A DNA stretch of 28,639 nucleotides. It comes from a virus. This document shows positions 1-22,081 of the stretch, piece after piece. The translations under genes were made by a program, and so were the position numbers. The notes under the pieces were generated by a model. It made no database searches and was not told where the DNA came from. It worked only from the letters and a program-made list of their open reading frames with translations. How positions within the stretch are numbered: the stretch's first letter is position 1; every line of letters starts with the position of its first letter. The DNA is taken from positions 1 through 28,639 of the IMG/VR virus record IMGVR_UViG_3300042691_003435. The stretch is one strand, 5' to 3'.

Positions 1-397
1 CCACCTGCAGATCGGTGTTGGGGAGTCCCATAGCAAACTCTAGGAAAGATTGATTAAAGATCCGATCTCCCTCGAACAAGATATTACAATTGTGAGATGC
101 GATCCATTCTTGAATAGGGGGTTGAACTGCCATGCTTAGGCGATCTGTTCCAGCGAAAGTTTCGCCTTCCTCATATTTACCTAGAATGTAAAGATCTAGG
201 TTTTCATTATATAACGCAGAAATTAGTTTAGCTGGTTCGACTTGAATCCATTGTTTATCTTCCATAAACTTACGAAATAGCGTAGTCTTGCCTGTTCCTG
301 GACTACCACCGACAGCAATTAGTTTTCTAGTTTTCATAGGATTAGTTATAAGTTTAACATTTATAGTATCTGTAACACCTAATCTTTCGTTAAGCAT
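1..397 (-). CDS. P-loop kinase, candidate 5-hydroxymethyl-pyrimidine DNA kinase (C-terminus cut by window edge)
   Basis: I translated this from the minus strand; 132 residues are visible and no stop is reached before the window edge. Walker A is GGSPGTGKTT at residues 30-39, and a FEGDR segment near residue 110 resembles a kinase Walker B/substrate region. The ATG at 397 has GAGGAAG about 7 nt upstream and overlaps the previous gene by 8 nt; the in-frame ATG at 337 has no ribosome site. P-loop kinases of phage thymidine hypermodification phosphorylate 5-hydroxymethyl-dU in DNA, activating it for nucleophilic displacement. That role is inferred from position: last visible gene of a cassette with a TET/JBP-like dioxygenase and an ADDT-like transferase. 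I do not see the helical domain described in known 5-hmdU kinases, but the C-terminus is missing. It could instead be a polynucleotide or nucleoside kinase. Confidence 0.6.
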   Translation of the reverse strand, partial: MLNERLGVTDTINVKLITNPMKTRKLIAVGGSPGTGKTTLFRKFMEDKQWIQVEPAKLISALYNENLDLYILGKYEEGETFAGTDRLSMAVQPPIQEWIASHNCNILFEGDRIFNQSFLEFAMGLPNTDLQV

Positions 398-770
398 TTT
401 TCACTTCCTCAATAAGTTTCTTTAATTCATCTTCTGTAAATACCCAGACTCTTCCAATAAAATGATGTACATCAGAGTCAACATCGTGTTTCTTTGTAAA
501 AGTAATCTTCTTGACTAATTCTCGTGCTGCATTTTTAGCAAGATTCTCTTTAATCTCGTCTGCATAAGTTGGAACAGTATCCTTTAATTTTAAGAGTTCA
601 TGTGCTGATACTTTATGATCAACAATTAGTTTATTAAACTCATACTTGTCTAACAAGGTTTCAGTTATAAGACCCATAGCAATACTTCCGTAAGTTAATG
701 AATCTGTTGCGTTAATTGTGATTGTTGTTGGTGCTGTAATAGAACTTGTAACCATAGTATTATCAATCAT
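390..770 (-). CDS. Hypothetical protein in the DNA-modification cassette
   Basis: A 126-aa protein of no family I recognise. The start ATG at 770 has GGAGG 7 nt upstream and overlaps the stop of the ADDT-like gene by 4 nt (ATGA), so the two are translationally coupled. The first 30 residues are rich in Thr, Ser and Ile and low in charge. The rest is mixed charged and probably helical, ending in a Lys/Glu-rich helix. There is no signal peptide, membrane segment or cysteine pair. It sits between the ADDT-like transferase and the P-loop kinase, so a role in the modification pathway, for example as a DNA-binding or scaffold subunit, is possible. That is inference from location only. Confidence 0.8.
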   Translation of the reverse strand: MIDNTMVTSSITAPTTITINATDSLTYGSIAMGLITETLLDKYEFNKLIVDHKVSAHELLKLKDTVPTYADEIKENLAKNAARELVKKITFTKKHDVDSDVHHFIGRVWVFTEDELKKLIEEVKNA

Positions 771-1786
771 GCAAATGCCTCCAACCCTTCAAGTATAGGT
801 TCTTCATCGTCAAACATCCATTCTAAGTTTTCAATTTTACCAGTTCTTAAGAAAGAACTATATCTTTCTTTATCAATACCACGTTTATCATCTAAACGAA
901 GATCAATAGTTTCATTTCTTGATTGCCACAATACATCCCAGTCGATACCATACCACCCATCTCCCTCTGCCATTTTAATTTCTTCTGCTTGCCGATCCAG
1001 ATAGTATCCAAGATAGCGACCATGGTGTTCTCTAAAGATCTTTTTAAAAGAACACAGGCAGGTTTCCATGGTGAAGAAGTCAACAATATGTGCTAACTCT
1101 GGAAATCTGGTTTTTGTTTCTTCAAGAATCTCCCTCGCTTGTGATTCAAGTCTCGCATAATCCCCTCTAGACAACTTTCTATCCAGATCGTGCTCCTGTG
1201 CGACGGCATAAAGAAGTCCATTACGATGAGAGCGAGAGCCATCAAAATCATCAAGCATGAGGCTAGTAGGATTAATCCTAATCCCAGCAGTATGCTTAAG
1301 ATGCTGAAGATAAAACCAAGTGGAATAACGACCAAACTTATGCAACCCACTTTTAATGCTTCTCCACAAAGAGTCAAAGTTCTCCTCCTCATTGTCTCCA
1401 TAATAACTCTCCAATCTTTCTCGCTGTGTTCTGTTTCCGATAAAATTTTGATATGACTCAAACATGACAGGGAGATGCCCCTTGTTCCATTTGGTATCAG
1501 TCTGATAACGAAGTCGCTTATAATTTATAGTGTTCCACTGTGTAATACGATCTACAGTGGCCAACTCAAAATCTGGGAATTCATTTTTCAGAACCCAAGC
1601 AGTTGGCAATTGATATGTATTTCCATATAGCCAAGCAAGCCAGATTTTTTCCTCGTCATTGTGCTCGTATCTTTTATGCAAATAATTAGTACACCAAACT
1701 GCTGGATCACAGTCATCATATTTTAAAGACCATGCATACCAACGGATGAACGCTTCTTTACGATTTTCTGCTAAACGATAATCCAT
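767..1786 (-). CDS. Candidate amino acid:DNA transferase (ADDT, formerly alpha-glutamyl/putrescinyl thymine pyrophosphorylase)
   Basis: A 339-aa soluble, Trp/Tyr/Arg-rich, apparently all-helical protein. Landmarks are WLYGNTYQLPTAW at residues 52-64 followed by NEFPDF, FGRYSTWFYLQ at 151-161, and LDDFDGSRSHRNG at 178-190. I recognise this pattern from phage ADDT proteins, a family related to helical DNA glycosylases that replaces the phosphate of 5-phosphomethyl-dU in DNA with an amino acid or amine. The assignment rests on memory of the pattern plus context, not on a search. The ATG at 1786 shares one base with the stop of the GNAT-like gene (TAATG). Neighbours supply the expected upstream steps: a TET/JBP-like dioxygenase and a P-loop kinase. 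The C-terminus ends GLEAFA, loosely like the clamp-binding tails on two neighbouring proteins. Confidence 0.65.
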   Translation of the reverse strand: MDYRLAENRKEAFIRWYAWSLKYDDCDPAVWCTNYLHKRYEHNDEEKIWLAWLYGNTYQLPTAWVLKNEFPDFELATVDRITQWNTINYKRLRYQTDTKWNKGHLPVMFESYQNFIGNRTQRERLESYYGDNEEENFDSLWRSIKSGLHKFGRYSTWFYLQHLKHTAGIRINPTSLMLDDFDGSRSHRNGLLYAVAQEHDLDRKLSRGDYARLESQAREILEETKTRFPELAHIVDFFTMETCLCSFKKIFREHHGRYLGYYLDRQAEEIKMAEGDGWYGIDWDVLWQSRNETIDLRLDDKRGIDKERYSSFLRTGKIENLEWMFDDEEPILEGLEAFA

Positions 1787-2445
1787 TATACTAAAAATTC
1801 TTCTAACGATGGTTGTTCCATTAAAGCATCACGCAACCAAGCACTTCCAACTGCATCAATTGCTGTTTGTGTCTTTAATTTCTTCTTGTCCGACCATTTG
1901 TAATTTTCTAATCCTTCTGAACGGAATTGATCTCTTGCCTTATAAGGTGGCAAAGCCGAGATTGGATTTGCGATAGCAGCAGTTCTAAATGCGAGTTGCT
2001 CATTACGAGTGGGGAATAAAACTTGGTCAGAACGGAGACTACCTGTGGGGTCAACTGCCCAGAAGATGAGACCATTTCTGTAATGCCAAGTGACTGAAGA
2101 TGGCGTACAAGATATTTTAAGTCTTTGAGATTTTCGCTCTTCAACTGCGTACCTAATCCAAGATTCCCAACATTTACCTGCGTATCCATTTCCTTCCTTA
2201 CCTTCCAACGTAACAATTTCATAAAGATTAGCATATCCATCACGATTGTGTGTAGCAAAAATTAATGAAACAACCTCTCCATTATCCTCAAGTGCCATTG
2301 GAGGACATTTGTCATAGTTATGAAAACGATACCACAATGAATGTGCTGCCGATAAGAACTTGGTATTCTTACCAGATGGACTAATTTTAATTAACTCTTC
2401 AACTCTCGTTGAATTAACAAAATTCATGTTGTAAATCCACGGCAT
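1786..2445 (-). CDS. GNAT-like acyltransferase of the modification cassette
   Basis: A 219-aa protein from the ATG at 2445. An upstream TTG at 2466 lacks a ribosome site, and an ATG at 2427 is an alternative start. The centre has the GNAT pattern: a strand (LYEIVTL), a Gly-rich pyrophosphate loop KEGNGYAG near residues 83-90, then a helix with Trp residues, and later strands with an aromatic HYRNGLIFW segment. GNAT proteins move acyl groups from acyl-CoA to amines, and GNAT-like proteins occur in phage thymidine hypermodification clusters. The start lies inside the end of the glutamine amidotransferase gene, so expression is coupled. The last residues, PSLEEFLV, match the tails of the dioxygenase and the DNA polymerase. 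The substrate is unknown; modified DNA or a precursor amine is an inference. Confidence 0.55.
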   Translation of the reverse strand: MPWIYNMNFVNSTRVEELIKISPSGKNTKFLSAAHSLWYRFHNYDKCPPMALEDNGEVVSLIFATHNRDGYANLYEIVTLEGKEGNGYAGKCWESWIRYAVEERKSQRLKISCTPSSVTWHYRNGLIFWAVDPTGSLRSDQVLFPTRNEQLAFRTAAIANPISALPPYKARDQFRSEGLENYKWSDKKKLKTQTAIDAVGSAWLRDALMEQPSLEEFLV

Positions 2446-3106
2446 CCTCAATGACTTCTTTTTCAATTGTCATTGCAAGTTGATCATCAAATGTAATGTA
2501 ATGATTCATTAAGGTATTAATCGGTAATCCTGGAACCCCTGCTCTTTTTGGCACATCAGCAGTAGAAGTAATTATACAACCATTTGATATACTTGTCAAA
2601 TATAATGGACGCTTACCATTGCGATAGAATCTAATAACTTTATCGATATGCAACTCCACAACTGCAAGACTAGAATCTTTCCAACGAAGCAAAGGACTGA
2701 TACAATCTTCTGCTGTATGTAAAATCAATTCAGTGTCGTTTTTAGTTTCGCAATCGTAACCATAAAGTTCTTTCCATTTCTCAGGTAACTCCTGAGTAAT
2801 AACTCCGTTGTGAACTACTGAAAGATTTTCATTAGCAATCGGTTGATTAAATTCCAAGTCACTAGTGCTATAACGACAGTGGCCAATGAGATAAAGATTA
2901 CCATCTTCATTCACATAACTTGGAAAATTAAATGGAAAATCATCGGCAGGAATCGCTCGCTTGTCAGTGACAATCTTTCCATGTTTAACAAAGGAAATTC
3001 CAGTAGCATGCATCCCTCGAATCTTAGACTCAAGAAACACACGATGTAACATTAAGAAATCCTCTGCACGTGGTTCTTTAATAATAGCACCAATAACGCT
3101 ACACAT
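2414..3106 (-). CDS. Class II (Ntn-type) glutamine amidotransferase domain protein
   Basis: A 230-aa stand-alone glutaminase domain. It starts MCSVIGA, so removal of Met exposes Cys2 as the N-terminal nucleophile of class II amidotransferases (PurF/GlmS/AsnB type). Further family motifs are RGMHATG (30-36), GHCRYST (75-81, binding glutamine), VVHNG (97-101) and NDTE (123-126). Such domains release ammonia from glutamine and normally pass it to a synthase or ligase partner. None is fused here, so the acceptor enzyme must be separate. The start overlaps the dioxygenase stop by one base (TAATG), which argues for stoichiometric co-expression. Within the cassette it may aminate a carboxylate attached to the modified base or feed the ADDT reaction. 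The family is clear; the role is inferred. Confidence 0.85.
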   Translation of the reverse strand: MCSVIGAIIKEPRAEDFLMLHRVFLESKIRGMHATGISFVKHGKIVTDKRAIPADDFPFNFPSYVNEDGNLYLIGHCRYSTSDLEFNQPIANENLSVVHNGVITQELPEKWKELYGYDCETKNDTELILHTAEDCISPLLRWKDSSLAVVELHIDKVIRFYRNGKRPLYLTSISNGCIITSTADVPKRAGVPGLPINTLMNHYITFDDQLAMTIEKEVIEDAVDLQHEFC

Positions 3107-4431
3107 TATCCGAAAAACTCCTCAAGTGAAGTATTTGCTGCTTGTGGGTGCATCTTAATTAACTCTTCTTGTCCAACCTTTGACTCACAATATTCATACC
3201 ATTCCTTTTCTTCCCACATTCCAGGACTGACACCATTCCAAAGATGTCGCATTGAGCCATCTTCATAAAACTGTCCTGGATGTTCTTTATTAAGTCTGCG
3301 GGATTCGACATAATCGAAACGACAATCTTCATATGCTTTAGAACCCAACTCAAGCATCTTCTCTCTAAAATAAACTACCAATGAGATTCGTTCTGCTACA
3401 TCGTCAAGTAATTCGATTTGAGTATTACCGTGCATAACTTCATGATTATTAATCAGCAATAGATCTCCAGGTCTTGGATTAACTGCGACACGATATTCTG
3501 GTGCTACCAGATAGCATCCTTTATAATTACCATTATTACTTAGTGTTAATAAATTAGATAAACCAGCAGTATAATCACCAGCATCAAAATGGCAAGCAGT
3601 TCTAAAAGATTTATTAACAGTAACAGTAGTAAATGGAGTTTTAGGAACTAGGAATGCAGGATCTAATTTCTTTGCTGCTTCCATCTGATTATTGTAACGC
3701 CATGGTAGCAAATCACTAAAACCTTTAGCAAGAGATTGCAAAAAGGGGTATGACATAGCAAATTTTGCAGGCTCACGAGCAGTATAAGAAGTCGCACGAC
3801 CATAAGGAATTCGTGGATAACGATCAAACCATCCAGCGATACCAGACATAACACCATTAGCATAGGTAGTTGCACATACGTATGCTTTCTCTACTCTTCT
3901 AGCCTCAGCAATCATATCAGGATGATCTAACTTACGAACCTTCTCGACCCAGTCATTAAATACAAAGTTATCTTTTTTAACTGCCTGAATTCCCCAAACA
4001 TTATTTCTTGTGGATGGTTTCTCAGTCTTACCTTTGTGTTTGGCTTTAATAACATCAATCGAATCTCCATCCAGAGATGCTTTTGGATCCAAAAAATAAT
4101 CTAAAATATCAGACTCATACTCTGTAACCCATTCACGATTACCTAACTTTTCTGCTCTTGGACCAGCAGCCATTCCTCTATTCTGAGTTTCAGTTGCTGC
4201 CTCACGCAAACCAAAGTATGCTTGATCTTGCTGTTCCTTAGAAAAATAATTCTTGCGAAACTTTAAGATAATTCTTTCTTCAGAATATGTCATCTCTGGA
4301 TGTCCAGGAATCTCTGGCATATAAACATCACAATCTTCCTCAATGAGAAAATCGTAATGTGACTCATCAGGGAACTGCCCCAACATATGAGTCATATCAA
4401 GTTTTTCTTTTGCTACAATTACTTTGACCAT
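3106..4431 (-). CDS. TET/JBP-like 2OG-Fe(II) DNA base dioxygenase
   Basis: A 441-aa protein with a double-stranded beta-helix dioxygenase core in the C-terminal half. Visible ligands are His281 and Asp283 (RTACHFDAGDY), His334 (EVMHGNTQ) and Arg348 (ERIS) for 2-oxoglutarate. The strand pattern GCYLVAPEYRVAVNPRPGD before the distal His matches TET/JBP enzymes, which hydroxylate the methyl of thymine or 5-methylcytosine in DNA. The N-terminal 250 residues carry no domain I recognise and may bind DNA. The ATG at 4431 has AGGAG 6 nt upstream. It is the first gene after helicase gp41 and heads the modification genes. The C-terminus reads TSLEEFFG, almost identical to the end of this phage's DNA polymerase. 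No DNA cytosine methylase is in the window, so thymine is the likelier substrate; this is an inference. Confidence 0.75.
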   Translation of the reverse strand: MVKVIVAKEKLDMTHMLGQFPDESHYDFLIEEDCDVYMPEIPGHPEMTYSEERIILKFRKNYFSKEQQDQAYFGLREAATETQNRGMAAGPRAEKLGNREWVTEYESDILDYFLDPKASLDGDSIDVIKAKHKGKTEKPSTRNNVWGIQAVKKDNFVFNDWVEKVRKLDHPDMIAEARRVEKAYVCATTYANGVMSGIAGWFDRYPRIPYGRATSYTAREPAKFAMSYPFLQSLAKGFSDLLPWRYNNQMEAAKKLDPAFLVPKTPFTTVTVNKSFRTACHFDAGDYTAGLSNLLTLSNNGNYKGCYLVAPEYRVAVNPRPGDLLLINNHEVMHGNTQIELLDDVAERISLVVYFREKMLELGSKAYEDCRFDYVESRRLNKEHPGQFYEDGSMRHLWNGVSPGMWEEKEWYEYCESKVGQEELIKMHPQAANTSLEEFFG

Positions 4432-4440
4432 CTTGTTCTC

Positions 4441-5829
4441 CTAAAACTTAAACCCTTCAAATGATTCTGTTTTCTGTCTTCGCCCGAAACTACTTTTATC
4501 GAACATAGGCTCGTCGTCTTGTCCAGCATCTGATAGTCCAACTTGAGCGGATGCTTCAGTATCATATAATTTCATTTTTGCTCTGTCTATTCCAACAACA
4601 AATCTTTTGTAAAAACTAGGATCGTTATATCTGTTTTTCAACTGCTTAACAATAATCTGATTCAGTGCTTCTAGTTCTTCGTTACTCACAAGAGCAAACA
4701 TAAAGTCAGCAGTGGCTGGTAAACCGAATGATTCAGAAGTATCTTCAAGACCTGGATCGGAGTTAGTGAAACCAGAACGAGTTGTTTGTGTGGCTGATAC
4801 AATTGGTACATTATACTCAACTGCCAGACCTCTTAGTTCTTCTGCAATCGCCTTAATATATGTATAAGAATTAATACTTCCACCCTGTTTCATTCTTTGA
4901 CTGGCGCAGATATTTAAATAATCAATAAAGATAACATCAGGTTTGAATTCTCTCTTTAACTTTAATTCTTCCAATAAAGCACGGAAGTGTCCAGCGTGAG
5001 CACCAGCAGTTGGGTATTCTTTAATGATAAGTTTACCTTGTGTTTTCTTAACAATCTTATCAATTCTACTTTCGTAGATATCTCTATCAATTACTTTAAG
5101 TTCATCCATGGTTAGATTTAAAAGATTTGCATCAATACGCTCAGCAATTCTTTCTTCTGCCATTTCCATAGTTATGTATAATACGTTTTTTCCCTGTACC
5201 AAATGAGATGCGCCAACGTGACACATAAACAAAGATTTACCAACACCAGTACCAGCAAGTGCGATGTTTAATGTTTTCTTGCTGAGTCCACCTTTGGTGA
5301 TTTTGTTGAACATTTCCAAGTCGAAAGGAATTTTCTCTTCAACCCTATGATAAAAATCATACCTCGAATCATGGTCATCCAGATAGTCATGGCCAATATG
5401 ATTATCAAATGAAACGGCAAGAGCATCAGAAAGGATACTGGGGATAGCATCTTTCGTATGGACTTTGTCGTTACCTTCAATGATTTTGATTGAGGCGAGG
5501 ATTGCATTGTAGACTGCCCTATCTTTACAAAACTTTTCTGTGTGTTCAAACATCCAATCTTCATTGACTGGTTCATTACTTAATTGATCTATGTAATCAG
5601 TTACTTCGTTTAATTCTTTATCGCTTAAATCTTTGCGATTAGAAACTTCGATAGATAAAATTTCTTTTGTGATTGGCTTGTTGTATCTGTTAAAAAACTC
5701 TACAGTTTCATATGCGATAATCGATTCTTTTCTATCTGTGAAATACTCTCTTTTAATAAATGGGATAACTTTGCGACAATACTGTTCATCATAAATCAGA
5801 TTGCTCAGAATCTTTTGTTCTATTCTCAT
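4441..5829 (-). CDS. 41: Replicative DNA helicase, T4 gp41-like (DnaB family)
   Basis: A 462-aa hexameric 5'-3' helicase of the DnaB/RecA fold, close to the 475 aa of T4 gp41. The N-terminal DnaB-like helical domain covers about residues 1-110. The ATPase domain has Walker A GTGVGKS at 193-199, the YITMEM motif (H1a-type) near 218-223, Walker B VIFIDYLN at 299-306, and later SATQTTRSG with the arginine-rich C-terminal part. The ATG at 5829 is preferred over a TTG one codon upstream because it has GGCGGA 5 nt before it. The gene overlaps the 110-aa gene by about 40 nt. It unwinds duplex ahead of the polymerase and interacts with primase. The tail ends SFEGFKF. Expression follows UvsX and precedes the base-modification genes. 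Confidence 0.93.
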   Translation of the reverse strand: MRIEQKILSNLIYDEQYCRKVIPFIKREYFTDRKESIIAYETVEFFNRYNKPITKEILSIEVSNRKDLSDKELNEVTDYIDQLSNEPVNEDWMFEHTEKFCKDRAVYNAILASIKIIEGNDKVHTKDAIPSILSDALAVSFDNHIGHDYLDDHDSRYDFYHRVEEKIPFDLEMFNKITKGGLSKKTLNIALAGTGVGKSLFMCHVGASHLVQGKNVLYITMEMAEERIAERIDANLLNLTMDELKVIDRDIYESRIDKIVKKTQGKLIIKEYPTAGAHAGHFRALLEELKLKREFKPDVIFIDYLNICASQRMKQGGSINSYTYIKAIAEELRGLAVEYNVPIVSATQTTRSGFTNSDPGLEDTSESFGLPATADFMFALVSNEELEALNQIIVKQLKNRYNDPSFYKRFVVGIDRAKMKLYDTEASAQVGLSDAGQDDEPMFDKSSFGRRQKTESFEGFKF

Positions 5830-6121
5830 CAATTCCGCCTGTGTAGGTTATATCATTATTGGCAATACCTTGATAGATACACTCTTCAAGAATCTTGCCG
5901 ATGTATTGCTCAAATGGTTCTTTGTCAGTCAAATTCTTGCCTGCATAGTCAAGAATGTCATACTCAAATTTTAAACTTACAGTATCGTTGGGTTCATTTT
6001 CAACAAACTCAACTTTACCGTAGTTATAGATCATACCCTCAAACTCACCTTCTGTCAACTGTATTGGGTAGAGTCCATCTTTTTCGGACTCCATTACTTT
6101 GATTGGTAGATTATTCTTCAA
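5789..6121 (-). CDS. Conserved phage hypothetical protein between uvsX and gp41
   Basis: A 110-aa acidic protein with no family I can name. It seems to start at TTG 6121. AGAGGA lies about 8 nt upstream, inside the end of uvsX, whereas the first in-frame ATG (6094) has no ribosome site. The first half looks beta-rich (IQLTEGEFEGMIYNYGKVEFVE), with the core sequence SLKFEYDILDY. The tail is charged and overlaps the helicase start by about 40 nt. Its place between the recombinase and the helicase suggests a recombination or helicase-loading accessory, but no gp59-like signature is visible, so no function is assigned. Confidence 0.8.
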   Translation of the reverse strand: MKNNLPIKVMESEKDGLYPIQLTEGEFEGMIYNYGKVEFVENEPNDTVSLKFEYDILDYAGKNLTDKEPFEQYIGKILEECIYQGIANNDITYTGGIDENRTKDSEQSDL

Positions 6122-7163
6122 AGTCCAATTCCTCTAATGCCTTATCTAATTCATCAGAGTTTACCATATTGGTATTACCGATAGAATATTTGGTTTTAAC
6201 ATAGTCATAGAATGACTTATCCATAAGAACAGGCATCCAAAAATCTTTTGTATCAGTTTCTTTTAAACGATACTTCTTATCTTCACCAGCTTTTGCATAC
6301 CATCCATTTGAGGGTTTAATTACATGACCACTTTCGAGAGCGAGATCCAATAGACCGCTCCACTTGCTAATGCCACCATCAAAAGATACGCTAACAGGTA
6401 TCTTAGATTTTTCTTTAACATATCTACTCTTTTCTACGTTAATAATAAAATTGTAACCTGTCAGCTCAGTTCCATCCTTTTCTTGCTGACGACCAAGAAT
6501 GAAGATGTTGTCAGCTGAATAATAAGAACCAGTACCACCACCAACAATATCTTTCGGATACAAACCAATCTCTTTATATGTATGATTGACAACAACCATA
6601 GGAATATCTTTCAAGGTCAAATGTGGTGTGACCATACGAAAGAGACTTTTTAATTGTTTGGCACGACTCATGTCAGCAACAGACTTACCTTCCATTGCAT
6701 CTTCTACTTCTTTCTTAGAAGCAAGATTGCCGATAGAATCAATCACAATCATAATCTTTTCACCACGATCTAAATTCTGTAACTGCTGCATAATATCAAA
6801 CTTCAATTGTTCAACATCAGTAATCGGAGTGTGCAAAACTCTATCGGTATCAATACCGAATGCATCGAAGTATGACTGTGGCGTACCAAACTCTGAATCA
6901 TAAAACAATAATGCAGACTCGGGATACTTTTCCATATATGACTTTGCCATTAGTAAACTAAATGCAGTTTTAAAATGCTTACTTGGACCAGCCCACATTG
7001 TAAGACCAGGAGTTAGACCACCATCAAGACGACCAGAAAGTGCCACATTAATAATAGGAATGGTGGTTGCAACCATATCCTTTTTAGTGAAGAACTTAGA
7101 ATCTGCTAAGATGGCAGAGTCTTTAATAGTTGAATTCTTTTTAATTTTATCTAAGATACCCAT
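6111..7163 (-). CDS. uvsX: UvsX RecA-like recombinase
   Basis: A 350-aa strand-exchange protein. Walker A is GPSKHFKT at 59-66, the unusual form shared with T4 UvsX (GPSKSFKS), and Walker B is IVIDS at 139-143. After it come VVNHTYKEIG and GGGTGSYYSAD, matching DNA-binding loop 2 of UvsX/RecA proteins. T4 UvsX is about 390 aa, so this is somewhat shorter. The ATG at 7163 has AAGGA 7 nt upstream. A strong promoter (TTGTCT-17-TATAAT) sits immediately upstream, so this is the first gene of the operon running through gp41 into the modification cassette. It drives recombination-dependent replication with gp46/47 and gp41. The C-terminus is acidic, as in RecA proteins. Confidence 0.95.
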   Translation of the reverse strand: MGILDKIKKNSTIKDSAILADSKFFTKKDMVATTIPIINVALSGRLDGGLTPGLTMWAGPSKHFKTAFSLLMAKSYMEKYPESALLFYDSEFGTPQSYFDAFGIDTDRVLHTPITDVEQLKFDIMQQLQNLDRGEKIMIVIDSIGNLASKKEVEDAMEGKSVADMSRAKQLKSLFRMVTPHLTLKDIPMVVVNHTYKEIGLYPKDIVGGGTGSYYSADNIFILGRQQEKDGTELTGYNFIINVEKSRYVKEKSKIPVSVSFDGGISKWSGLLDLALESGHVIKPSNGWYAKAGEDKKYRLKETDTKDFWMPVLMDKSFYDYVKTKYSIGNTNMVNSDELDKALEELDFEE

Positions 7164-7223: not shown

Positions 7224-9713
7224 TTAACCGAAGAAATCTTCCAATGAACTTTCTTCTTGTGTTTTCCAACCTAAAGGCTCGATTACAATTTGGAGGGCAT
7301 CAAGAAAAACCTTCTCAAACTGTTTATCATAATCTATGTATGATTCCAATTGAAACTCTTTTGGTAAATGTTGACTGAAAGCAATAACATCTTCCTGCAG
7401 AGGATTGGGTGTACGAACATAGACAAACTTAATTTTATCTCCGTCACGAATAGGTTGATACTTCTTATCCAATCCCATGCGTTTACAATGATGATTATAA
7501 AGCAGCGCACCACGTACATGAATTGGTGTACCCTTGGTATAAATTGGAGAACCAGCGTACTGTTTTATACCATTTACTCCACGAGGAAATGCTATGTCAT
7601 GAATTGGTAATTTATCAAATTGTTTTTTAAATTCCATTACATATGTATGTAAATCTTTCTGATCACCAGCAAGAATAACTTGTAAAGAATCTCTAAGTTT
7701 ATCACGAATCACTGCTGGTGTAGATGACTTTACCATCTCCAATCCCATAACTTTAATCTTTGGTTTTGCAAACTGCACACCCTCAGAGTTATGCACATTG
7801 ATAACATATCGTTTCTTAGCAGTCCAGATCGCTTTATCTGCTAAAACCTCTCGCTTCATCTGCATCTTTTGACCATAAGCATTCATATACTCAGCAAGTT
7901 CTGTATAACCTTGATCAATAAATGGTTGGAAAACTTCTTCGCAGATACGATCCATATATTTTATTTTGGAATTGGTGTCTTTTCCATCACAAACTTTTTC
8001 AATCAATTCTTCTAAAGTTAGATAGATTGAATCCGTATCAATAGCAATTACAAAGTCTTTACCTTCAGTTTTAAGAGTTTTATTAAGAAATGCATTTAAT
8101 TTATTAGCCATCCATCGAATGGATAGTTGACCAGAGGTGGTAATACCTTCAGCCATACGAATGTCAAAGTAACGGAAGTATTGATTACCCATGGCACCAT
8201 AAGCAGAGTTCAACGCAATCTTCATTGCCATCTGTAGGTTATTCAATCGAGAAATTTCTTTCAATAGATGTTTCTTGTTTTTATCATTCTGATATTCTTG
8301 CTCTACTTTTAGCATTTGCTTCTTAAATTTACTTCGATCGACATACATCTTTTCCATTAACTCTGGCATGAATCCCTTGTACTCTTTTGTATATGTCCAT
8401 CCATTAGCAGTCAAAGAAAGATCTCGTTGTTTAAGATATGTAGCATCAATTTCTTGATTGAGTAATTTATCTACTGTTACTGATAGTTTCTCGCTCGTCA
8501 GAGTTTCTGGGCTGATGTTGTACTGCATAATCAGATGCGGATACAAACTGTTTAAGTCAAATGAGGCAACCCATTTGTGCATTCCAATAAGAGGATCTTT
8601 AACATACGCACCTTCGAATTGCGTATCTTTTCCTACACCTGCAGACTTCAAAGGTATAACAATATTCTTTTTACGCAGGTGATTGTAGATGATTGTATCC
8701 CACATACGAACCTGAGAATAAACATCTTCAAAATTAATCTTGGCATTGTACGCCATAGTAAGATGTAGTTCTAATAACCGCATCTTGTCCTCGAGTTTCT
8801 CTACAAGTTCAACATCGTGAATATTATAGTCAACGAATTCTTTCCAATAGTTGGTATAAAAATCACGGAAGTCAGTTCCAGGATTCTCTTTCTTCTTGTC
8901 ACCGAGTTCTTCTTGTGCGATGTAGTCTAGTCGATAAGATTCCTGTTTTGTATATGTATATTTCTTATAGAGTTCTAGATAATCTAGTTGACTAATACCA
9001 GAGATATCATAATGCAGTTCTTCACTACCTTTGATAAATGTATTGCGTTCATTAATCAATCCCCATGGACTTAACTTTTTGGCAAATGTTTCACCAAGTT
9101 CCCTGGAGATTCGTTTGATAAGATATGGCACGTCAAAGAAATCTGTGTTCCAACCAGTAATAACATCTGGATAGTTTTGTTGCCACCAGATTATAAACTC
9201 TTTAAGCAATTGTTGTTCGTCACGACAGTAAACATATGTTACATCTTCTCTTTGATTGTCATATTCACGAGTGCCCCATGTGACAATCTTTTTAGTTTGA
9301 GTATCTTTAATCGTAATCAGAAGGACTTCTTCATTGGCACTACGAATATCTGGAAATCCATGTTCAGTTGATGTCTCAATATCAAGAGAAAATACACGAA
9401 TCTGTTCCATATCCCAGTTAACATCACTATCATATGTATCACTAATGTATTGGTATGCGTAATTCGTATTACCGTAGATGGCAAACCCAGAAACATCTTC
9501 ATACTTCTTAATAAATTCACGTGTCTCTTTAATGCTTCCTGGTTTCATCTCGTCAACATACGTACCTTCTAACGTATGCCAGTTAGACTTAGACTTAGAA
9601 GTGACAAAAAGCGTAGGGTAGAAATCTACCTTACGCATATATCGTCTACCTTTATCGTATCCAATGACGAACATTTTATCGCCATATGGTGCTACATTAG
9701 TATAAAATTCCAT
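7224..9713 (-). CDS. 43: Family B DNA polymerase, T4 gp43-like
   Basis: An 829-aa replicative polymerase with proofreading. Exonuclease motifs are Exo I SLDIET (Asp111, Glu113), Exo II GWNTDFFDVPY (Asp194) and Exo III YNIHDVE (Asp300). Polymerase motifs are A, FDLNSLYPH (Asp386); B, KIALNSAYGAMGN (498-510); and C, IDTDSIY (Asp559, Asp561). Motif A has His where the common form is SLYPS. It is a little shorter than T4 gp43 (898 aa). The C-terminus is SSLEDFFG, equivalent to the T4 gp43 tail (SLDFLFG) that binds clamp gp45. The start shares one base with the dexA stop (TAATG) and has only a weak ribosome site, so translation probably depends on coupling. Confidence 0.97.
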   Translation of the reverse strand: MEFYTNVAPYGDKMFVIGYDKGRRYMRKVDFYPTLFVTSKSKSNWHTLEGTYVDEMKPGSIKETREFIKKYEDVSGFAIYGNTNYAYQYISDTYDSDVNWDMEQIRVFSLDIETSTEHGFPDIRSANEEVLLITIKDTQTKKIVTWGTREYDNQREDVTYVYCRDEQQLLKEFIIWWQQNYPDVITGWNTDFFDVPYLIKRISRELGETFAKKLSPWGLINERNTFIKGSEELHYDISGISQLDYLELYKKYTYTKQESYRLDYIAQEELGDKKKENPGTDFRDFYTNYWKEFVDYNIHDVELVEKLEDKMRLLELHLTMAYNAKINFEDVYSQVRMWDTIIYNHLRKKNIVIPLKSAGVGKDTQFEGAYVKDPLIGMHKWVASFDLNSLYPHLIMQYNISPETLTSEKLSVTVDKLLNQEIDATYLKQRDLSLTANGWTYTKEYKGFMPELMEKMYVDRSKFKKQMLKVEQEYQNDKNKKHLLKEISRLNNLQMAMKIALNSAYGAMGNQYFRYFDIRMAEGITTSGQLSIRWMANKLNAFLNKTLKTEGKDFVIAIDTDSIYLTLEELIEKVCDGKDTNSKIKYMDRICEEVFQPFIDQGYTELAEYMNAYGQKMQMKREVLADKAIWTAKKRYVINVHNSEGVQFAKPKIKVMGLEMVKSSTPAVIRDKLRDSLQVILAGDQKDLHTYVMEFKKQFDKLPIHDIAFPRGVNGIKQYAGSPIYTKGTPIHVRGALLYNHHCKRMGLDKKYQPIRDGDKIKFVYVRTPNPLQEDVIAFSQHLPKEFQLESYIDYDKQFEKVFLDALQIVIEPLGWKTQEESSLEDFFG

Positions 9714-14604: not shown

Positions 14605-15141
14605 TCACTCCATTTTTAAAATTTGATTCTTATCATCTTGCTCATAATTATATACAATGTTAGAAGAAACTACATATCTATATCCAGTAAATTCTTTTTT
14701 TGGAACTCTGTGCATAACATTTCCCTCAAATAACAATAACAATCCATGAGATGGAAGAACCTCTCTCCAAACACCATCTTCATAAAGAAATTCTATTCCT
14801 GGACAATTTTCTGGAGGATTTAAATAGTAAGCAGTAGCCCAAGTAGCTGGATAATGCGAGTGTTCTATCGCATGCTCATTTGATTTGTATTTTAATCCCC
14901 ACATAGAAAGTATAACAGCATCAATATTTCTTTTATATTTCTCTAGAGAGGCTTGTTGTACTGCCATGTTTATATAATAGCACAACTCCCTAAATCCATC
15001 TTTATCTTGCATTTTCCATTCAGTCATTTGTGCTTTGACATTTGTAGAATGGTTTTGTCTGTCTTGTTGTTCGTCAATAACTCTGATAATATCAGCAGTC
15101 ATTTTTGGGTCATCAACTGTTAAATTATAAATGAATGGCAT
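14605..15141 (-). CDS. 2OG-Fe(II) oxygenase-like protein
   Basis: A 178-aa protein beginning MPFIYNLTV at ATG 15141, with AAGG 8 nt upstream; the TTG at 15159 is less likely. The N-terminal half is helical. The C-terminal half has a beta-helix pattern: HSHYPATWATAYYL (His94/His96), a PGIEFLY strand, LPSHGLLLLFEGNVMHRV (distal His144) and YRYVVSSN (Arg155 as possible 2-oxoglutarate ligand). The first metal site lacks the common HxD form, so activity needs testing. Related small oxygenases of unknown substrate are common in marine T4-like phages. It starts just before the stop of the 67-aa gene. Confidence 0.6.
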   Translation of the reverse strand: MPFIYNLTVDDPKMTADIIRVIDEQQDRQNHSTNVKAQMTEWKMQDKDGFRELCYYINMAVQQASLEKYKRNIDAVILSMWGLKYKSNEHAIEHSHYPATWATAYYLNPPENCPGIEFLYEDGVWREVLPSHGLLLLFEGNVMHRVPKKEFTGYRYVVSSNIVYNYEQDDKNQILKME

Positions 15142-15145
15142 TTTG

Positions 15146-15349
15146 CTAACCTTGTTCAACTAAAAATTCTATGTAATCGGCAGCCTCGTGTTGGTCAGTA
15201 AAATATTTTACAATAAAGTTGTCTGGTTCATAGGCATGAAGTGCAACTATCATTATCTGTGTATTTTTATATACAGATATTTTTAATAACCAGTCACCAC
15301 GTCTTACCGTGATGAATGATATCATGTTTGGGGATAGTTTGGCTTTCAT
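15146..15349 (-). CDS. Hypothetical small protein
   Basis: A 67-aa protein with a beta-rich centre (WLLKISVYKNTQIMIVALHAYE) and a C-terminal helix. The ATG at 15349 sits directly against the hairpin at 15350-15387 and has no clear ribosome site; an internal ATG (15325) has none either. The start is therefore uncertain. The frame overlaps the next gene's ribosome-binding region, as expected for a real gene in this operon. No family is recognised. Confidence 0.6.
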   Translation of the reverse strand: MKAKLSPNMISFITVRRGDWLLKISVYKNTQIMIVALHAYEPDNFIVKYFTDQHEAADYIEFLVEQG

Positions 15350-17076: not shown

Positions 17077-17607
17077 TTAATCTTCTGGCAGATATAAAAA
17101 AGAAATATCTGAATTATTTATAGTATCTAGTGCGTCCTCAATAGTTTCTACGAGAGGTGCTCCAGCAAGATTAAATGATGTATTAAATAATACTGGAACC
17201 CCAGTTTTTTTATAAAATTCTTCTATCAACTCATAAAAATTTTTATTCTGTTCTTTGGTCACAGTCTGTATTCTGCATGTTCCATCAACATGAATAATAG
17301 AAGGAATCTCTTTGTGTGCTTTTGGTTTAGCCTTTACCGCAAATGACATCCAAGGAGATTCTTTTAATGTGAGCATTTCAAAATAGTCATGAACGTATTC
17401 TAGCATAATCGTTCCAGCAAATGGACGATACCACTCTCTTTTCTTAACAATGTTTACAATTTCTTTACCATTAGGATTTCTAGGATCAAATATAATAGAT
17501 CTATTTCCTAGAGCACGTGGACCAATCTCACTAGATCCTTGGAAGATAGCACCGACTTTTTGTTGTAATAAAAGTTCTACTACTGTATGTTTATCTTTAA
17601 TTATCAT
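17077..17607 (-). CDS. Carbamoyltransferase, C-terminal domain (split NodU/CmcH family)
   Basis: A 176-aa protein from the ATG at 17607. It holds the C-terminal domain of NodU/CmcH O-carbamoyltransferases: IGPRALGNRSIIFDPR near residues 29-44, EWYRPFAG, and TGVPVLFNTSFNLAGAPLVE before the end. In the family the two domains are one chain of roughly 500-600 aa. Here the N-terminal domain is encoded by the upstream gene in a different frame with an 11-nt overlap. Every expected motif is kept in each part, so a two-subunit enzyme is plausible. The enzyme class moves carbamoyl from carbamoyl phosphate to a hydroxyl group. A terminator follows at 16894. The acceptor is unknown; hydroxymethylated DNA bases are one possibility. 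Confidence 0.85.
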   Translation of the reverse strand: MIIKDKHTVVELLLQQKVGAIFQGSSEIGPRALGNRSIIFDPRNPNGKEIVNIVKKREWYRPFAGTIMLEYVHDYFEMLTLKESPWMSFAVKAKPKAHKEIPSIIHVDGTCRIQTVTKEQNKNFYELIEEFYKKTGVPVLFNTSFNLAGAPLVETIEDALDTINNSDISFLYLPED

Positions 17608-18535
17608 GTAATGTTCTTTCGAGCCAAAGCGCAGCGCCAATAGATGTACCTGTATCATTAGCTGCGGGATCTACAAAGAAATTATATTCTGGAAAGTGTT
17701 TTAAATATTCATAATTGTTGACGCAGTTTAGAGCATATCCACCAGAAAGTATTATATTTTTTGTATCAGAATATGATATAGCCTTTCTTATTAATTCGAT
17801 TGTATGGTTCTTTGTTTCTTCTTGTAGTATTCTTGCTTTGTCTTCTTGTTTGGTGCCATTTAAATCACCATAGCTGGCTAAACCCATGACCTTCCCAGCC
17901 TCTTCTGAAGTTCCAATTATTTCCTCTGACAGCTGTGAGAATTTCATTCCACTGCTTAATCTACTAGAAAAATTAAATTCTATACCATTAATATGTTTAA
18001 CAGTTTCAGTATTGGATCTAGAATATCTAACATCACTATATGCTTTATATCTTGCAATACATTTACTTTTATCAATGTAGTAGATACTTTCTATCTCCTG
18101 ATAACTGGGAAACTCTAAAACATTTTTTGCGCCTCCACCATCCATAACTATGCAAATGGCATCATCAAATTTAGAAAAATAATAACCACAATAGACATGA
18201 TATAAGTGATGTTCTAATTCAAAGATATAATTATGTTCGCCGACTAATTTTTCTATTTGTAAAGTAGTTTCATTAATTATCTGTTCATCAGTTACTTCTT
18301 TATTAGATTTCGGAATAATTCCAAGAGGAATACTCCTATCCCAAGAAGTGTAAATCACATAATCTGGTTTTTGTTTTAAATGTTTTTCTAAACAAATAAA
18401 CTTACCAGATTTAAATGGTGGTAAACTATATTTTTTTCTATTAAATCGTTCTTCTTCAAAATAAAAATCCACCTGTCCGCCAGTTAATTGACAAACAGAT
18501 GGATGATGTGATATGTTTATTCCCAATATTCTCAT
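17597..18535 (-). CDS. Carbamoyltransferase, N-terminal Kae1-like domain (split NodU/CmcH family)
   Basis: A 312-aa protein from ATG 18535 (MRILGINISHHPS). An upstream TTG at 18655 would overlap the 55-aa gene and is rejected, although the ATG has only a weak ribosome site. Motifs in order: LEHHLYHVYCGYYF (metal-binding His cluster), IVMDGGGAKN, SGGYALNCVNN (nucleotide/carbamoyl-adenylate site), and VDPAANDTGTSIGAAL at the end. These are the conserved elements of the ASKHA/Kae1-like half of NodU/CmcH enzymes, which forms carbamoyl-adenylate from ATP and carbamoyl phosphate. The chain stops just after GAALWLE, at the domain border, and the second half follows in the next gene. There is no long homopolymer at the junction to suggest a simple sequencing slip. 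Confidence 0.87.
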   Translation of the reverse strand: MRILGINISHHPSVCQLTGGQVDFYFEEERFNRKKYSLPPFKSGKFICLEKHLKQKPDYVIYTSWDRSIPLGIIPKSNKEVTDEQIINETTLQIEKLVGEHNYIFELEHHLYHVYCGYYFSKFDDAICIVMDGGGAKNVLEFPSYQEIESIYYIDKSKCIARYKAYSDVRYSRSNTETVKHINGIEFNFSSRLSSGMKFSQLSEEIIGTSEEAGKVMGLASYGDLNGTKQEDKARILQEETKNHTIELIRKAISYSDTKNIILSGGYALNCVNNYEYLKHFPEYNFFVDPAANDTGTSIGAALWLERTLHDN

Positions 18536-18554
18536 AACAAAACTTAAACTACAC

Positions 18555-18722
18555 TTAAACGGATTCTGTTGCTGCTTGTTCCTTTTTAGCCAACTCAGCA
18601 ACCTGTGGTTCGCCTTGTTGTTTAATTTTATTGATAAGAAGAACAACTTCTTCAAATGGATGTTTACCTAAGGTACGAAGAATCATATTAGTTTCTTCAA
18701 CTGTCAATTCAAGTTTAATCAT
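18555..18722 (-). CDS. 55-aa conserved-looking protein after regA
   Basis: A short gene: MIKLELTVEETNMILRTLGK, then a helix LPFEE-type segment (HPFEEVVLLINKIKQQ) and a Lys/Ala-rich tail. AGGAAAG lies about 8 nt before the ATG at 18722, which overlaps the regA stop by 4 nt (ATGA). Small proteins with this L.V.ET..IL..L...PF..V..LI pattern are familiar to me from marine phages, but no function is known. Confidence 0.78.
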   Translation of the reverse strand: MIKLELTVEETNMILRTLGKHPFEEVVLLINKIKQQGEPQVAELAKKEQAATESV

Positions 18723-19856: not shown

Positions 19857-20807
19857 TCATTTGAATTTACACTGAGACATAATCTCAGTTAATGCTGCCA
19901 TTATATTTAGTTCATGATCTGCTACAAAAGCTGCTTTGTATTGATAATCTGCCAAAATAAGAACCAATGGAGGGATACTATTCATCTCAATTGTTTCAGT
20001 AGCATTATCATATAGTTCTCTAAACAAAGAAGTAGTATCTGCCTCTGAATTCTTAGAGACCCACTTTCTAACTTCGGTGAAATTCTTTTCTTTCATTAGT
20101 TTTAGTAGGTTCCTAAACGACTCTTGAGACATGTTAACCAAAATGCCAGAGTCTATCTTACCACTAACGGAATAACGCTGAAGTTCGTTTAGTATTCTAC
20201 GATAATCTGGGAAATACTTTGTGATAAGTTCAGCAACTACCTTGGGGTCGAATTCAACATTTTCCTGTTTAAGGATGGATGTGGCTCTTTTAAAGAAGGC
20301 AGCAGCGATCTCCTGTTTTTCTTTAGTATCAATTTTAAATTCGATTACAGAACAACGAGAATGAATCGGTTCGATAATACGATTCTTATAATTAGCAGTG
20401 AAGATAAATCTGCAATTAGCAGAAAATTCTTCCATGTAATTGCGGAGAGCTGGCTGAGTAGAGTTTGCCTGTAGATAATCTGCTTCGTCTAAGATGATAA
20501 CTTTCTTAGCATCAGTTAGAGATACTGATGTAGCAAATCCTTTGATGGTTGTGCGCAATGTATCAATATGACCACCAGTATCAGATCCGTTAAGAATAAT
20601 ATATTCTGCATTGATCTCATTACATAGAGCCTTAGCGACTGTTGTTTTTCCTACTCCTGCAGTTCCACAAAGAAGAAAATGCGGAAGTTCTCCATGAGCG
20701 ATATAATCTTTAAATGTTTTCTTTAAAGATTCTGGTAAAATACAATCATCAATTTTCTGAGGACGATATTTTTCTACCCACAGAAAGTGTTCATCACGAA
20801 TGTCCAT
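19857..20807 (-). CDS. 44: Clamp loader ATPase subunit, gp44-like
   Basis: A 316-aa AAA+ ATPase, the same size as T4 gp44 (319 aa). It opens WVEKYRPQKIDD, the clamp-loader signature, followed by Walker A GTAGVGKT (48-55), Walker B VIILDEADYL (103-112), sensor 1 FTANYKN and the SRC arginine-finger motif (HSRC, 149-152). The C-terminal collar is helical. Four copies with one gp62 load gp45 onto primer ends in an ATP-dependent step. AGGAG lies 10 nt before the ATG. The next gene upstream is a 2OG oxygenase rather than gp45 itself. Confidence 0.96.
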   Translation of the reverse strand: MDIRDEHFLWVEKYRPQKIDDCILPESLKKTFKDYIAHGELPHFLLCGTAGVGKTTVAKALCNEINAEYIILNGSDTGGHIDTLRTTIKGFATSVSLTDAKKVIILDEADYLQANSTQPALRNYMEEFSANCRFIFTANYKNRIIEPIHSRCSVIEFKIDTKEKQEIAAAFFKRATSILKQENVEFDPKVVAELITKYFPDYRRILNELQRYSVSGKIDSGILVNMSQESFRNLLKLMKEKNFTEVRKWVSKNSEADTTSLFRELYDNATETIEMNSIPPLVLILADYQYKAAFVADHELNIMAALTEIMSQCKFK

Positions 20808-20823
20808 AATATATTAACTCCTA

Positions 20824-21423
20824 TCATTCTGCATTAAATGCTATTGAAATTCTTTCTTCATCACTATCATGCGACTCAACACTATGGCTGACCCAAGCAG
20901 GAAACATTATCGCTCTAGATTCTACAGGTTTATAAGCAACATGATTGGATGTATCCATATGTTTGCTGTCAGTAAAAGTGTTCCACATCCATGCTTGATG
21001 TTGGTCTCTTTGAAATTTTAATTCACCAGTACCATCAGTTTTAACATAATAAACACCAGAAAGAACACAAGAAGGATGTATATGTGGCACATTTCTGTCA
21101 CCCTTTGTGTTCACATTAAACCAATAATCTGTTATCATTAGATTCTGTTTAAAAGAATATTTTGTAGCTATCTGTTCTATACAGTTTGTTAGTTTTTCAT
21201 GCAGAGGGATTAAACAATCTGGTAATCCCCAATCACTACAATCAAGCTGTGGGTGAATAGCATCTGATTGCCAACCACCAATGTTAGAATAGACTCTTCC
21301 AGAATTTTTAATTTTTAATTCACGAATATATTCTGCAATAGAAACATTATCAATATCGCTGACTTCTGAAATCCAGATTAATGCTGACGGAAACCATCTT
21401 TCTACACGAATGGTTTCGTTCAT
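20824..21423 (-). CDS. 2OG-Fe(II) oxygenase between gp45 and gp44
   Basis: A 199-aa protein from ATG 21423, one base after the gp45 stop; the TTG at 21453 inside gp45 is rejected. The sequence VPHIHPSCVLSGVYYVKTDG (His114, His116), GELKFQRDQ, then MFPAWVSHSVE (His180) and ERISIAFN (Arg191) is the pattern of the small 2OG-Fe(II) oxygenases common in marine T4-like phages. The substrate is unknown. N-terminal residues 1-100 are helical with Trp-rich segments. Insertion between clamp and clamp-loader genes means it is produced with the replisome. Unlike the dioxygenase at 3106, it lacks the TET/JBP HxD motif and the SLEEFF tail. Confidence 0.82.
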   Translation of the reverse strand: MNETIRVERWFPSALIWISEVSDIDNVSIAEYIRELKIKNSGRVYSNIGGWQSDAIHPQLDCSDWGLPDCLIPLHEKLTNCIEQIATKYSFKQNLMITDYWFNVNTKGDRNVPHIHPSCVLSGVYYVKTDGTGELKFQRDQHQAWMWNTFTDSKHMDTSNHVAYKPVESRAIMFPAWVSHSVESHDSDEERISIAFNAE

Positions 21424-21424
21424 G

Positions 21425-22081
21425 TTAGAACTCAAATGTAGAATCTGCCTCAACTGCTACATAATATACAAGATCGCCAGCACCTCTGAATCTAGAAATT
21501 TTCTTAGAAGAAACACTGACAGAATAATCTCCAGGTAACATTTTAAGATTTTCAACTTTAAGATTAATCTTAAATTTCTTATCAGTGGTTCCTACAGGCT
21601 CGCTGAAAGAATTACCTGTAGCATTTTTCTTATCACCAACTACAGCAGTAATAGTTGAACCATCACCAACAATAGAAATATCTGCAGCTCTCAAAACAGA
21701 AGCAGTTTTATGTATCATATTCAACATCGCTGCAGACATATCAAAATTAATATCTGCCTCTGGAAATGTGATCGCTTTTTGTGGTGCAGTTAGAACTGAG
21801 GGATCTGCAGCAAAGAATTTGATATTCATGCTACCCTGTTTAATGATAACATACTTATCTTTAAACTCTAATTCTGGATCTTCAAACAAGGACATTGCGC
21901 CCATAAATTCGTTTAAATCATAGATTCCAAAATCAGGAAATGTTTCTGTCACTGTAGCATCAGCCATCACATTCTTTTGTGCGCTGATTGTCGCTAATTT
22001 ATTACCACTCTTAAGAAGAAGGTTCGAATTGATACCTGCGAAATTCTTAAACAGTGCAACAGTTTCTTTACTAAGTTTCAT
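21425..22081 (-). CDS. 45: Sliding clamp, gp45-like
   Basis: A 218-aa processivity clamp (T4 gp45 is 228 aa). It begins MKLSKETVALFKNFAGINS, nearly the T4 sequence, and keeps IYDLNEFMGAMSL, FFAADPSVLTAPQK, the LKMLPGDYSV segment and the ending YVAVEADSTFEF. The trimeric ring tethers gp43 and, in T4, is also the mobile activator of late transcription through gp33/gp55. GGAG lies 7 nt before ATG 22081. It is the first gene of its operon, driven by the promoter at 22124. At least three other proteins in this window carry gp43-like tails that could bind it. Confidence 0.97.
   Translation of the reverse strand: MKLSKETVALFKNFAGINSNLLLKSGNKLATISAQKNVMADATVTETFPDFGIYDLNEFMGAMSLFEDPELEFKDKYVIIKQGSMNIKFFAADPSVLTAPQKAITFPEADINFDMSAAMLNMIHKTASVLRAADISIVGDGSTITAVVGDKKNATGNSFSEPVGTTDKKFKINLKVENLKMLPGDYSVSVSSKKISRFRGAGDLVYYVAVEADSTFEF

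Follow-up and report, generated by a model that had tools for sequence, protein, structure and literature searches.

The window analysed here, a stretch of 28,639 nucleotides (28.6 kb) that is a fragment of a larger phage genome, carries a fixed gene cassette shared by freshwater T4-like phages that form a common group. As judged from its protein sequences, the cassette probably makes a hypermodified thymine after replication, by the action of a TET/JBP dioxygenase (TET), then a kinase, then an ADDT protein, and then tailoring enzymes. A more specific proposal, to which we give an even chance, is that a clamp-tethered, replication-coupled TET starts a pathway to an undescribed amide or acylated-amine thymine, with exchangeable tailoring modules, and that this pathway is widespread in freshwater T4-like phages. 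The features concerned are as follows.

2..4431, minus strand: the six cassette genes, in 5'-3' order on the minus strand TET, glutamine amidotransferase (GATase), GNAT, ADDT, 126-aa protein and P-loop kinase (ORF list).
3106..4431, minus strand: TET/JBP-family 2-oxoglutarate/Fe(II) dioxygenase, 441 aa, proposed thymine-in-DNA hydroxylase (Pfam Tet_JBP, TET2 match, ligands).
3109..3129, minus strand: SLEEFFG, predicted sliding-clamp-binding peptide at the C-terminus of the TET (motif shared with the DNA polymerase).
2414..3106, minus strand: free-standing glutamine amidotransferase of class II (Ntn), 230 aa, with Cys2 at its N-terminus (GATase_6, motifs).
1786..2427, minus strand: GNAT-fold transferase, ~213 aa (AlphaFold/Foldseek, weak Acetyltransf_1).
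1789..1809, minus strand: SLEEFLV, predicted sliding-clamp-binding peptide at the C-terminus of the GNAT (tail motif).
767..1786, minus strand: ADDT (amino acid:DNA transferase, also aGPT-PPlase), 339 aa, for which substitution of phosphorylated 5-hmU is proposed (Pfam, tblastn).
390..770, minus strand: 126-aa protein with no assigned function, present in most cassettes (alignment of 32).
2..397, minus strand: P-loop kinase of 202 aa, the first 132 of which lie in the window, gene cut by the window end (phrog_800, P-loop; distant relative of 5-hmdU DNA kinases).
7227..7247, minus strand: SLEDFFG, with which the phage DNA polymerase (gene 7224-9713) ends, the reference motif (T4-type polymerase tail).
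21425..22081, minus strand: probable sliding clamp (gp45-like), proposed docking partner (judged by its size and its place in the gene order, next to the clamp-loader ORF 19857-20807).

The six genes lie on the minus strand at the positions given in the first-pass annotation, and an ORF check confirmed that neighbours overlap or abut. Two of its boundaries need amending: the kinase is incomplete at the window end, and the GNAT start was probably misplaced, ATG 2427 (213 aa) being more likely than the listed TTG 2466 because GNAT relatives start there. The order of the block is kept across ~100 viral loci, with protein identities of roughly 40-100%, which excludes a chance arrangement, and the amidotransferase is found in 111/111 loci that have TET and ADDT together. 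Gene content was compared in six relatives of the window (G001-G006; 161-174 kb, near-complete, without end repeats and of uncertified completeness). DLP6 and Cr30 are cultured relatives.

The dioxygenase matches Tet_JBP (PF12851) in Pfam with E 1.1e-25 (90.2 bits against a cut-off of 34.9), and its profile finds human TET2 structures with E 2.2e-8. The ligands originally read from the sequence, His281, Asp283 and His334 (HxD...H) together with the 2OG-binding Arg348, were correctly identified: they are in register with TET2 in the profile alignment and invariant in 20 diverse TETs down to 30% identity (an alignment that excludes the Melnitz ORF 5017-6300, which is the wrong ORF, the real Melnitz TET being 3956-4942). 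As predicted from its family, the enzyme most likely acts on DNA by oxidising a 5-methylpyrimidine. The position that aligns with TET2 Asn1387 was considered as a marker of substrate specificity and rejected; most cassette TETs have Asp there and two have Asn, and as the Melnitz TET, which adjoins a C5 methylase, also has Asp, the residue is not diagnostic.

In the known thymidine pathway, ADDT and 5-hmdU DNA kinase act on 5-hmU in DNA (PMC6449724). The protein earlier flagged as an ADDT candidate was borne out by its match to Pfam ADDT (PF18724; E 2.1e-23, 83.7 bits against a cut-off of 26.2); a tblastn search finds ADDT relatives in Ackermannviridae and Vibrio phages with E down to 2e-25, and the protein aligns with those of Cr30 and Ag3. 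The kinase, which near-identical contigs show to be 202 aa when complete, matches phrog_800 with E 7.5e-10 for the part in the window and 1.5e-13 at full length, a family to which the Vi01 and M6 5-hmdU DNA kinases also belong. The full-length protein also matches Ploopntkinase3 (E 1.6e-7) and PF18751 (31.5 bits), and the P-loop, EGDR and the LID Arg are invariant in the kinase alignment. PF18748, which represents the Vi01/M6 kinases in Pfam, is not among the matches of the full-length kinase, although Vi01_061c and M6 gp054 do match it. In a four-sequence test the kinase profile found M6 gp054 (E 2.9e-6) and Vi01_061c (E 1.3e-4), and against PDB sequences it gave mostly generic P-loop matches. 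Family placement moved neither the 767-1786 protein nor the kinase to unrelated families, and the kinase call holds, though outside PF18748.

As the window is a fragment, a missing dUMP hydroxymethylase or methylase has to be deduced from relatives. Four thymine-hypermodifying control phages (Vi01, Ag3, M6 and PhiW-14) have ADDT (4/4) and a PF00303 dUMP-hydroxymethylase-type enzyme (4/4), the divergent PF00303 enzymes being detected at E 1e-14 to 1e-20 in all of them, and no TET was found in any of the four. The near-complete relatives show the reverse, with ADDT, TET and ThyX in 6/6 and PF00303 in 0/6. From this reciprocal distribution among ADDT phages, TET most likely replaces the dUMP-hydroxymethylase-type enzyme and converts thymine in DNA to 5-hydroxymethyluracil. 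The comparison (TET instead of PF00303; no C5 methylase) thus lends good support to the earlier proposal that thymine is hydroxylated in DNA, then phosphorylated and then substituted, and to the contrast drawn there with phages that make 5-hmdU as a nucleotide; neither a dUMP hydroxymethylase nor a C5-cytosine DNA methylase, enzymes of kinds whose presence elsewhere in the genome had been considered, turned up in the six relatives (PF00303, PF00145). In Cr30, TET, ADDT and the kinase occur together with a thymidylate synthase that is near-canonical.

An unrecognised nucleotide enzyme, for example a ThyX variant, could instead supply 5-hydroxymethyl-dUMP, with TET oxidising the base or its side chain later. 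The ThyX of all six relatives would fit such a route, as would the optional extra 2OG oxygenases that lie between TET and the amidotransferase in ~15 loci. We nevertheless consider it unlikely, since the known dUMP hydroxymethylases are PF00303 relatives, of which our search finds even divergent ones in every control, since TET and a divergent PF00303 enzyme never occur together in one record among those searched, and since TET is the sole oxygenase present throughout the block. A cytosine substrate seems similarly improbable to us. It would have TET convert 5-methylcytosine to 5-hydroxymethylcytosine for elaboration by kinase and ADDT, the methylase being encoded elsewhere or belonging to another family. 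Characterised phage TETs reportedly act on 5-methylcytosine, as Burke et al. 2021 are said to have found, and in Methylophilales phage Melnitz-1 a homologue of the window's kinase lies in one cluster with a TET and a C5-cytosine methylase, so that a TET-kinase pair can occur in a cytosine setting. However, Melnitz is without ADDT, which elsewhere is tied to thymine hypermodification, and the C5-cytosine methylase model PF00145, which does match the Melnitz gene at E 7e-55, found nothing in 11 records (0/11), including G001-G006, Cr30, DLP6, C48C1 and S-CBWM1.

We favor thymine as the substrate, and expect with some firmness that TET, held on DNA by its clamp tail, would hydroxylate the thymine methyl to 5-hydroxymethyluracil, that the P-loop kinase would phosphorylate the new hydroxyl as 5-hmdU DNA kinases do in Vi01 and M6, and that ADDT would swap the phosphate for an amine, probably an amino acid, or for ammonia released by the amidotransferase. 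More tentatively, the amidotransferase and GNAT might then convert the side chain to an amide or N-acyl group, and in a sister lineage the amidotransferase might do the tailoring with an amidoligase-like protein and another GNAT. Some phages encode an additional enzyme, either a radical SAM protein or another 2OG oxygenase. The likely purpose is shielding from host restriction. We found no report in the literature of a modified base in any phage with this cassette.

The motifs from which a class II amidotransferase had been recognised are all present: the protein matches GATase_6 in Pfam with E 2.7e-10, the nucleophile C2, the glutamine-site R78, N100-G101 and D124 are invariant in 14 diverse relatives, and relatives begin with MC in 121/122 cases. 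The GNAT call fared less evenly; by sequence it is weak (Acetyltransf_1, E 0.002, below the Pfam cut-off), but a GNAT fold is supported by the AlphaFold model (pLDDT 78.5), for which Foldseek returns spermidine acetyltransferases with probability 1.00 and a moderate TMt of ~0.6. In the sister lineage this GNAT is replaced by an amidoligase-like protein and a different GNAT, and the two alternatives occupy 109 and 29 loci, with 0 loci having both. PLP-dependent enzymes acting on an attached amino acid were not seen within the cassette. In an alignment of 32, the 126-aa protein has a variable N-terminus and a conserved C-terminal half; Pfam, PHROG and further searches place it in no known family, and its AlphaFold model (pLDDT 60, low confidence) matches only uncharacterised phage proteins, so it keeps its initial label of unknown protein.

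These genes invite the reading that the block consists of auxiliary genes for RNA, protein or surface sugars that are linked by position only, as GATases, GNATs and amidoligases are families familiar chiefly from the chemistry of metabolites and peptides and the 126-aa protein is without known family. We regard this as very unlikely, because TET, ADDT and the 5-hmdU-kinase-like protein all come from families of enzymes that act on DNA bases, and because the clamp-like tails of TET and GNAT put both with replication. A clamp-type tail is found in 123/126 TET relatives and 89/90 GNAT relatives. The strict motif occurs in polymerase, TET and GNAT in G001 and in polymerase and TET in G006, and in no other called ORF of either, with ~0.3 matches expected by chance in G001. 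A broad hydrophobic-tail pattern also matches several further proteins, some apparently structural, so the strict motif alone was taken as evidence. Its limitation to polymerase, TET and GNAT suggests that the latter two ride the sliding clamp via polymerase-like tails. In T4, the tails of gp43, gp55 and gp33 bind the gp45 clamp (gp43: PMC2988020, PMC3012046). Use of gp55 as a second tail reference was dropped, the gp55 homologues of two large relatives being without the motif at their end. T4 alpha-glucosyltransferase is likewise a DNA-modifying enzyme that binds gp45, but it is a glycosyltransferase on 5hmC and not an oxygenase, and its clamp binding did not explain its share of in vivo modification (PMC13216743), so tethering may matter little here.

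Among known systems, Salmonella phage Vi01, Pseudomonas phage M6 and Delftia phage PhiW-14 (5-NeOmdU, 5-NedU, putrescinyl-thymine) share ADDT with the window group (3/3), and Vi01 and M6 share the phrog_800 kinase, but they have the divergent PF00303-type enzyme and no TET, whereas the window group has TET and no PF00303, plus amidotransferase and GNAT. Kinetoplastid JBP1/JBP2 belong to the TET/JBP family and hydroxylate thymine in DNA, after which glucosylation yields base J; hydroxylation followed by elaboration is common to both systems, with kinase and ADDT here in place of glucosylation. Phage TET systems of the 5mC type also start from a methylated DNA pyrimidine, whose oxidation provides a handle for later modification, but with glycosyltransferase partners, whereas here the partners are ADDT and kinase and the searched records hold no C5-cytosine methylase. 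Iyer et al. 2013 are said to have predicted phage TET/JBP products as starting points of complex modifications, so the general concept is not new. Caulobacter phage Cr30 resembles the window in its TET (46% identity), kinase (40%) and ADDT (31%), all within ~10 kb, but no amidotransferase was found there by profile, and the phage has an inositol-phosphate synthase as well as a weak match to a TET-associated glycosyltransferase. CmoX/CmoY of Synechococcus phage S-B43 likewise use a phage DNA base as carrier for amide formation, but on cytosine, by carboxymethyl chemistry and an ATP-dependent ligase; TET, kinase and ADDT are not named in the abstract of that report (PMC12783734).

If the proposed pathway is correct, it would be a second viral entry to thymine hypermodification, via oxidation of finished DNA and not a change of the nucleotide pool. 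The phage would be spared replacing cellular thymidine nucleotides or adapting its polymerase, the modification could be partial or sequence-selective, and the sliding clamp would bring TET-like enzymes near the replication fork. Oxidases specific for thymine and active on bulk DNA would make useful reagents, and the pathway may end in a novel DNA base.

The window, a 28.6 kb virus record with replication genes of T4-like type, carries at its left end six overlapping or abutting minus-strand genes, as claimed in the first-pass annotation:

3106-4431, minus strand: TET/JBP dioxygenase (Pfam E 1.1e-25, strong)
2414-3106, minus strand: class II glutamine amidotransferase (Pfam GATase_6 E 2.7e-10, strong)
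about 1786-2427, minus strand: GNAT (Pfam support weak)
767-1786, minus strand: ADDT (Pfam E 2.1e-23, strong)
390-770, minus strand: 126-aa protein
2-397, minus strand: P-loop kinase, truncated by the window end (full length 202 aa, from two contigs with 99-100% identity)

The dioxygenase, amidotransferase and ADDT assignments made from the sequence are borne out by these matches. Among relatives, TET residues H281, D283, H334 and R348 and amidotransferase residues C2, R78, N100-G101 and D124 are kept, as are the P-loop, EGDR and LID arginines of the kinase, and the TET profile matches human TET2 structures at 2e-8 with both metal-binding blocks in register. For the GNAT, Pfam gives little, but the predicted structure (pLDDT 78.5) has Foldseek matches to spermidine and N-terminal acetyltransferases. 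Two IMG/VR scans returned >300 relatives for TET and likewise for ADDT. The order TET-GAT-GNAT-ADDT-unknown-kinase (GAT, the amidotransferase) is almost invariable among fetched loci, and GAT is present in 111/111 loci holding both TET and ADDT, a count of loci, several sometimes from one contig, that were chosen by similarity to the window and hence form a biased sample.

The base on which the cassette acts is the main point that we infer here. Hypermodified thymine has been reported for Vi01, and also for M6, ViI and phi W-14 (PMC6449724); Ag3 is in the family of Vi01, whose modification genes are reported to be conserved. Vi01, Ag3, M6 and PhiW-14 served as controls for the comparison of enzyme content. 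All four have ADDT, and no TET was found in them; each also has a divergent PF00303 enzyme (E 8e-15 to 6e-20), which is taken to be the known pathway's dUMP hydroxymethylase. The six 161-174 kb relatives of the window (completeness not certified) all have ADDT, TET and a ThyX thymidylate synthase. On the question, raised in the first-pass annotation, of a dUMP hydroxymethylase or DNA methylase elsewhere in the genome, these six gave no match to PF00303 or to a C5-cytosine methylase; the PF00303 search was sensitive enough, because it detected the divergent enzymes of the controls. In the cultured Caulobacter phage Cr30, TET, ADDT and the kinase occur alongside a near-canonical thymidylate synthase (E 4e-113), and a C5 methylase was not found. 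The simplest reading of these gene contents is that TET stands in for the hydroxymethylase and acts on thymine, which favors the original proposal of thymine hydroxylation in place.

That a cytosine alternative exists is shown by Methylophilales phage Melnitz-1 (L175, 2758-6838), where one cluster holds a TET, a C5-cytosine methylase and a protein homologous to the cassette kinase, and ADDT is absent. The cluster looks like a cytosine counterpart of the TET-kinase pair. In the TET-bearing phages C48C1 (L004), DLP6 (L002) and S-CBWM1 (L005) neither ADDT nor a C5 methylase was found; their TET neighbours vary (in C48C1, for example, a UDP-galactopyranose mutase-like protein), suggesting alternative fates of the hydroxylated base.

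The C-termini of the DNA polymerase (SLEDFFG), TET (SLEEFFG) and GNAT (SLEEFLV) are alike. The strict tail pattern, with a chance expectation of about 0.3 estimated from internal peptides, occurs in one large relative (G001, 229 called ORFs) in these three proteins only and in another (G006, 246 called ORFs) in polymerase and TET only; 123/126 TETs and 89/90 GNATs retain the tail. T4 gp43, gp55 and gp33 each bind the gp45 clamp through their C-termini, which are interchangeable (PMC2988020), and the RB69 polymerase tail has been observed bound to the RB69 clamp (PMC3012046). TET and GNAT are thus predicted clamp clients, which argues for action on DNA. T4 alpha-glucosyltransferase co-purifies with gp45, although the same paper reports that clamp binding does not chiefly account for the enzyme's share of the modification (PMC13216743). 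The Melnitz-1 TET ends in LNDFLGE, likewise resembling a clamp tail.

The kinase keeps its P-loop and matches PF18751, but not the Pfam 5-hmdU kinase model PF18748, matched by both Vi01_061c, which adjoins the Vi01 PF00303 gene, and M6 gp054. All three proteins fall in one PHROG, phrog_800, and the window-kinase profile weakly matches the other two; the window protein is therefore distantly related to the 5-hmdU DNA kinases but outside the narrow family. Purified 5hmdU DNA kinase of M6 modifies 5hmdU within DNA, according to an unpublished result (PMC6449724). The PHROG label "terminase small subunit" appears mistaken, as the proteins so named in Vi01, M6 and Cr30 are P-loop kinases; in the loci examined, a 231-242 aa protein with a HEMIH motif (weak SprT-like match) lies downstream of the kinase:

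NC_015296 38203-38865: phrog_800 P-loop kinase of Vi01, matches the 5-hmdU DNA kinase model
NC_007809 41685-42248: phrog_800 P-loop kinase of M6, matches the 5-hmdU DNA kinase model
NC_025422 51788-52333: phrog_800 P-loop kinase of Cr30
L110 12064-12756, with equivalents elsewhere: HEMIH-motif protein, downstream of the kinase

Iyer et al. are said to have predicted in 2013 that phage TET/JBP products initiate complex modifications and that ADDT-type enzymes construct hypermodified thymine, and phage TET action on 5mC was reportedly published by Burke et al. in 2021. No description of the cassette was found in searches of the open-access literature.

A sister lineage (e.g. L110 7221-8637 and relatives) is missing the window-type GNAT and has in its position a clear 183-aa GNAT (Acetyltransf_10 E 6e-12) together with a 292-294 aa protein that weakly resembles amidoligases (PF12224 E 0.007-0.012, below the cut-off). 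The window-type GNAT occurs in 109 loci and the latter pair in 29, with no locus having both. In a few loci (L077 6777-8198; also L114, L125, L130 and L136) a radical SAM protein of B12 type (weak B12-binding match) is inserted next to the kinase, with ADDT or the unknown protein on its other side, and in about 15 a 2OG-FeII_Oxy_5 protein separates TET from GAT. The common theme of the tailoring genes would be amide or acyl chemistry. ADDT may attach an amino acid that is later amidated or acylated; alternatively, it could use ammonia supplied by the amidotransferase and so form 5-aminomethyluracil, to be acylated by the GNAT.

Outside the conserved cassette lies a NodU/TobZ-type carbamoyltransferase (window 17077-18655, minus strand; Carbam_trans_N, Carbam_trans_C), in two overlapping reading frames; an open 558-aa frame is found in 1/7 large relatives (G006). 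A phage enzyme of this family carbamoylates 5hmC, not 5hmdUTP (PMC8670742), so that any action on 5-hmU is no more than conceivable. Two more 2OG-FeII_Oxy_5 proteins are also encoded outside the cassette:

14605-15159: 2OG-FeII_Oxy_5 protein
20824-21453, minus strand: 2OG-FeII_Oxy_5 protein
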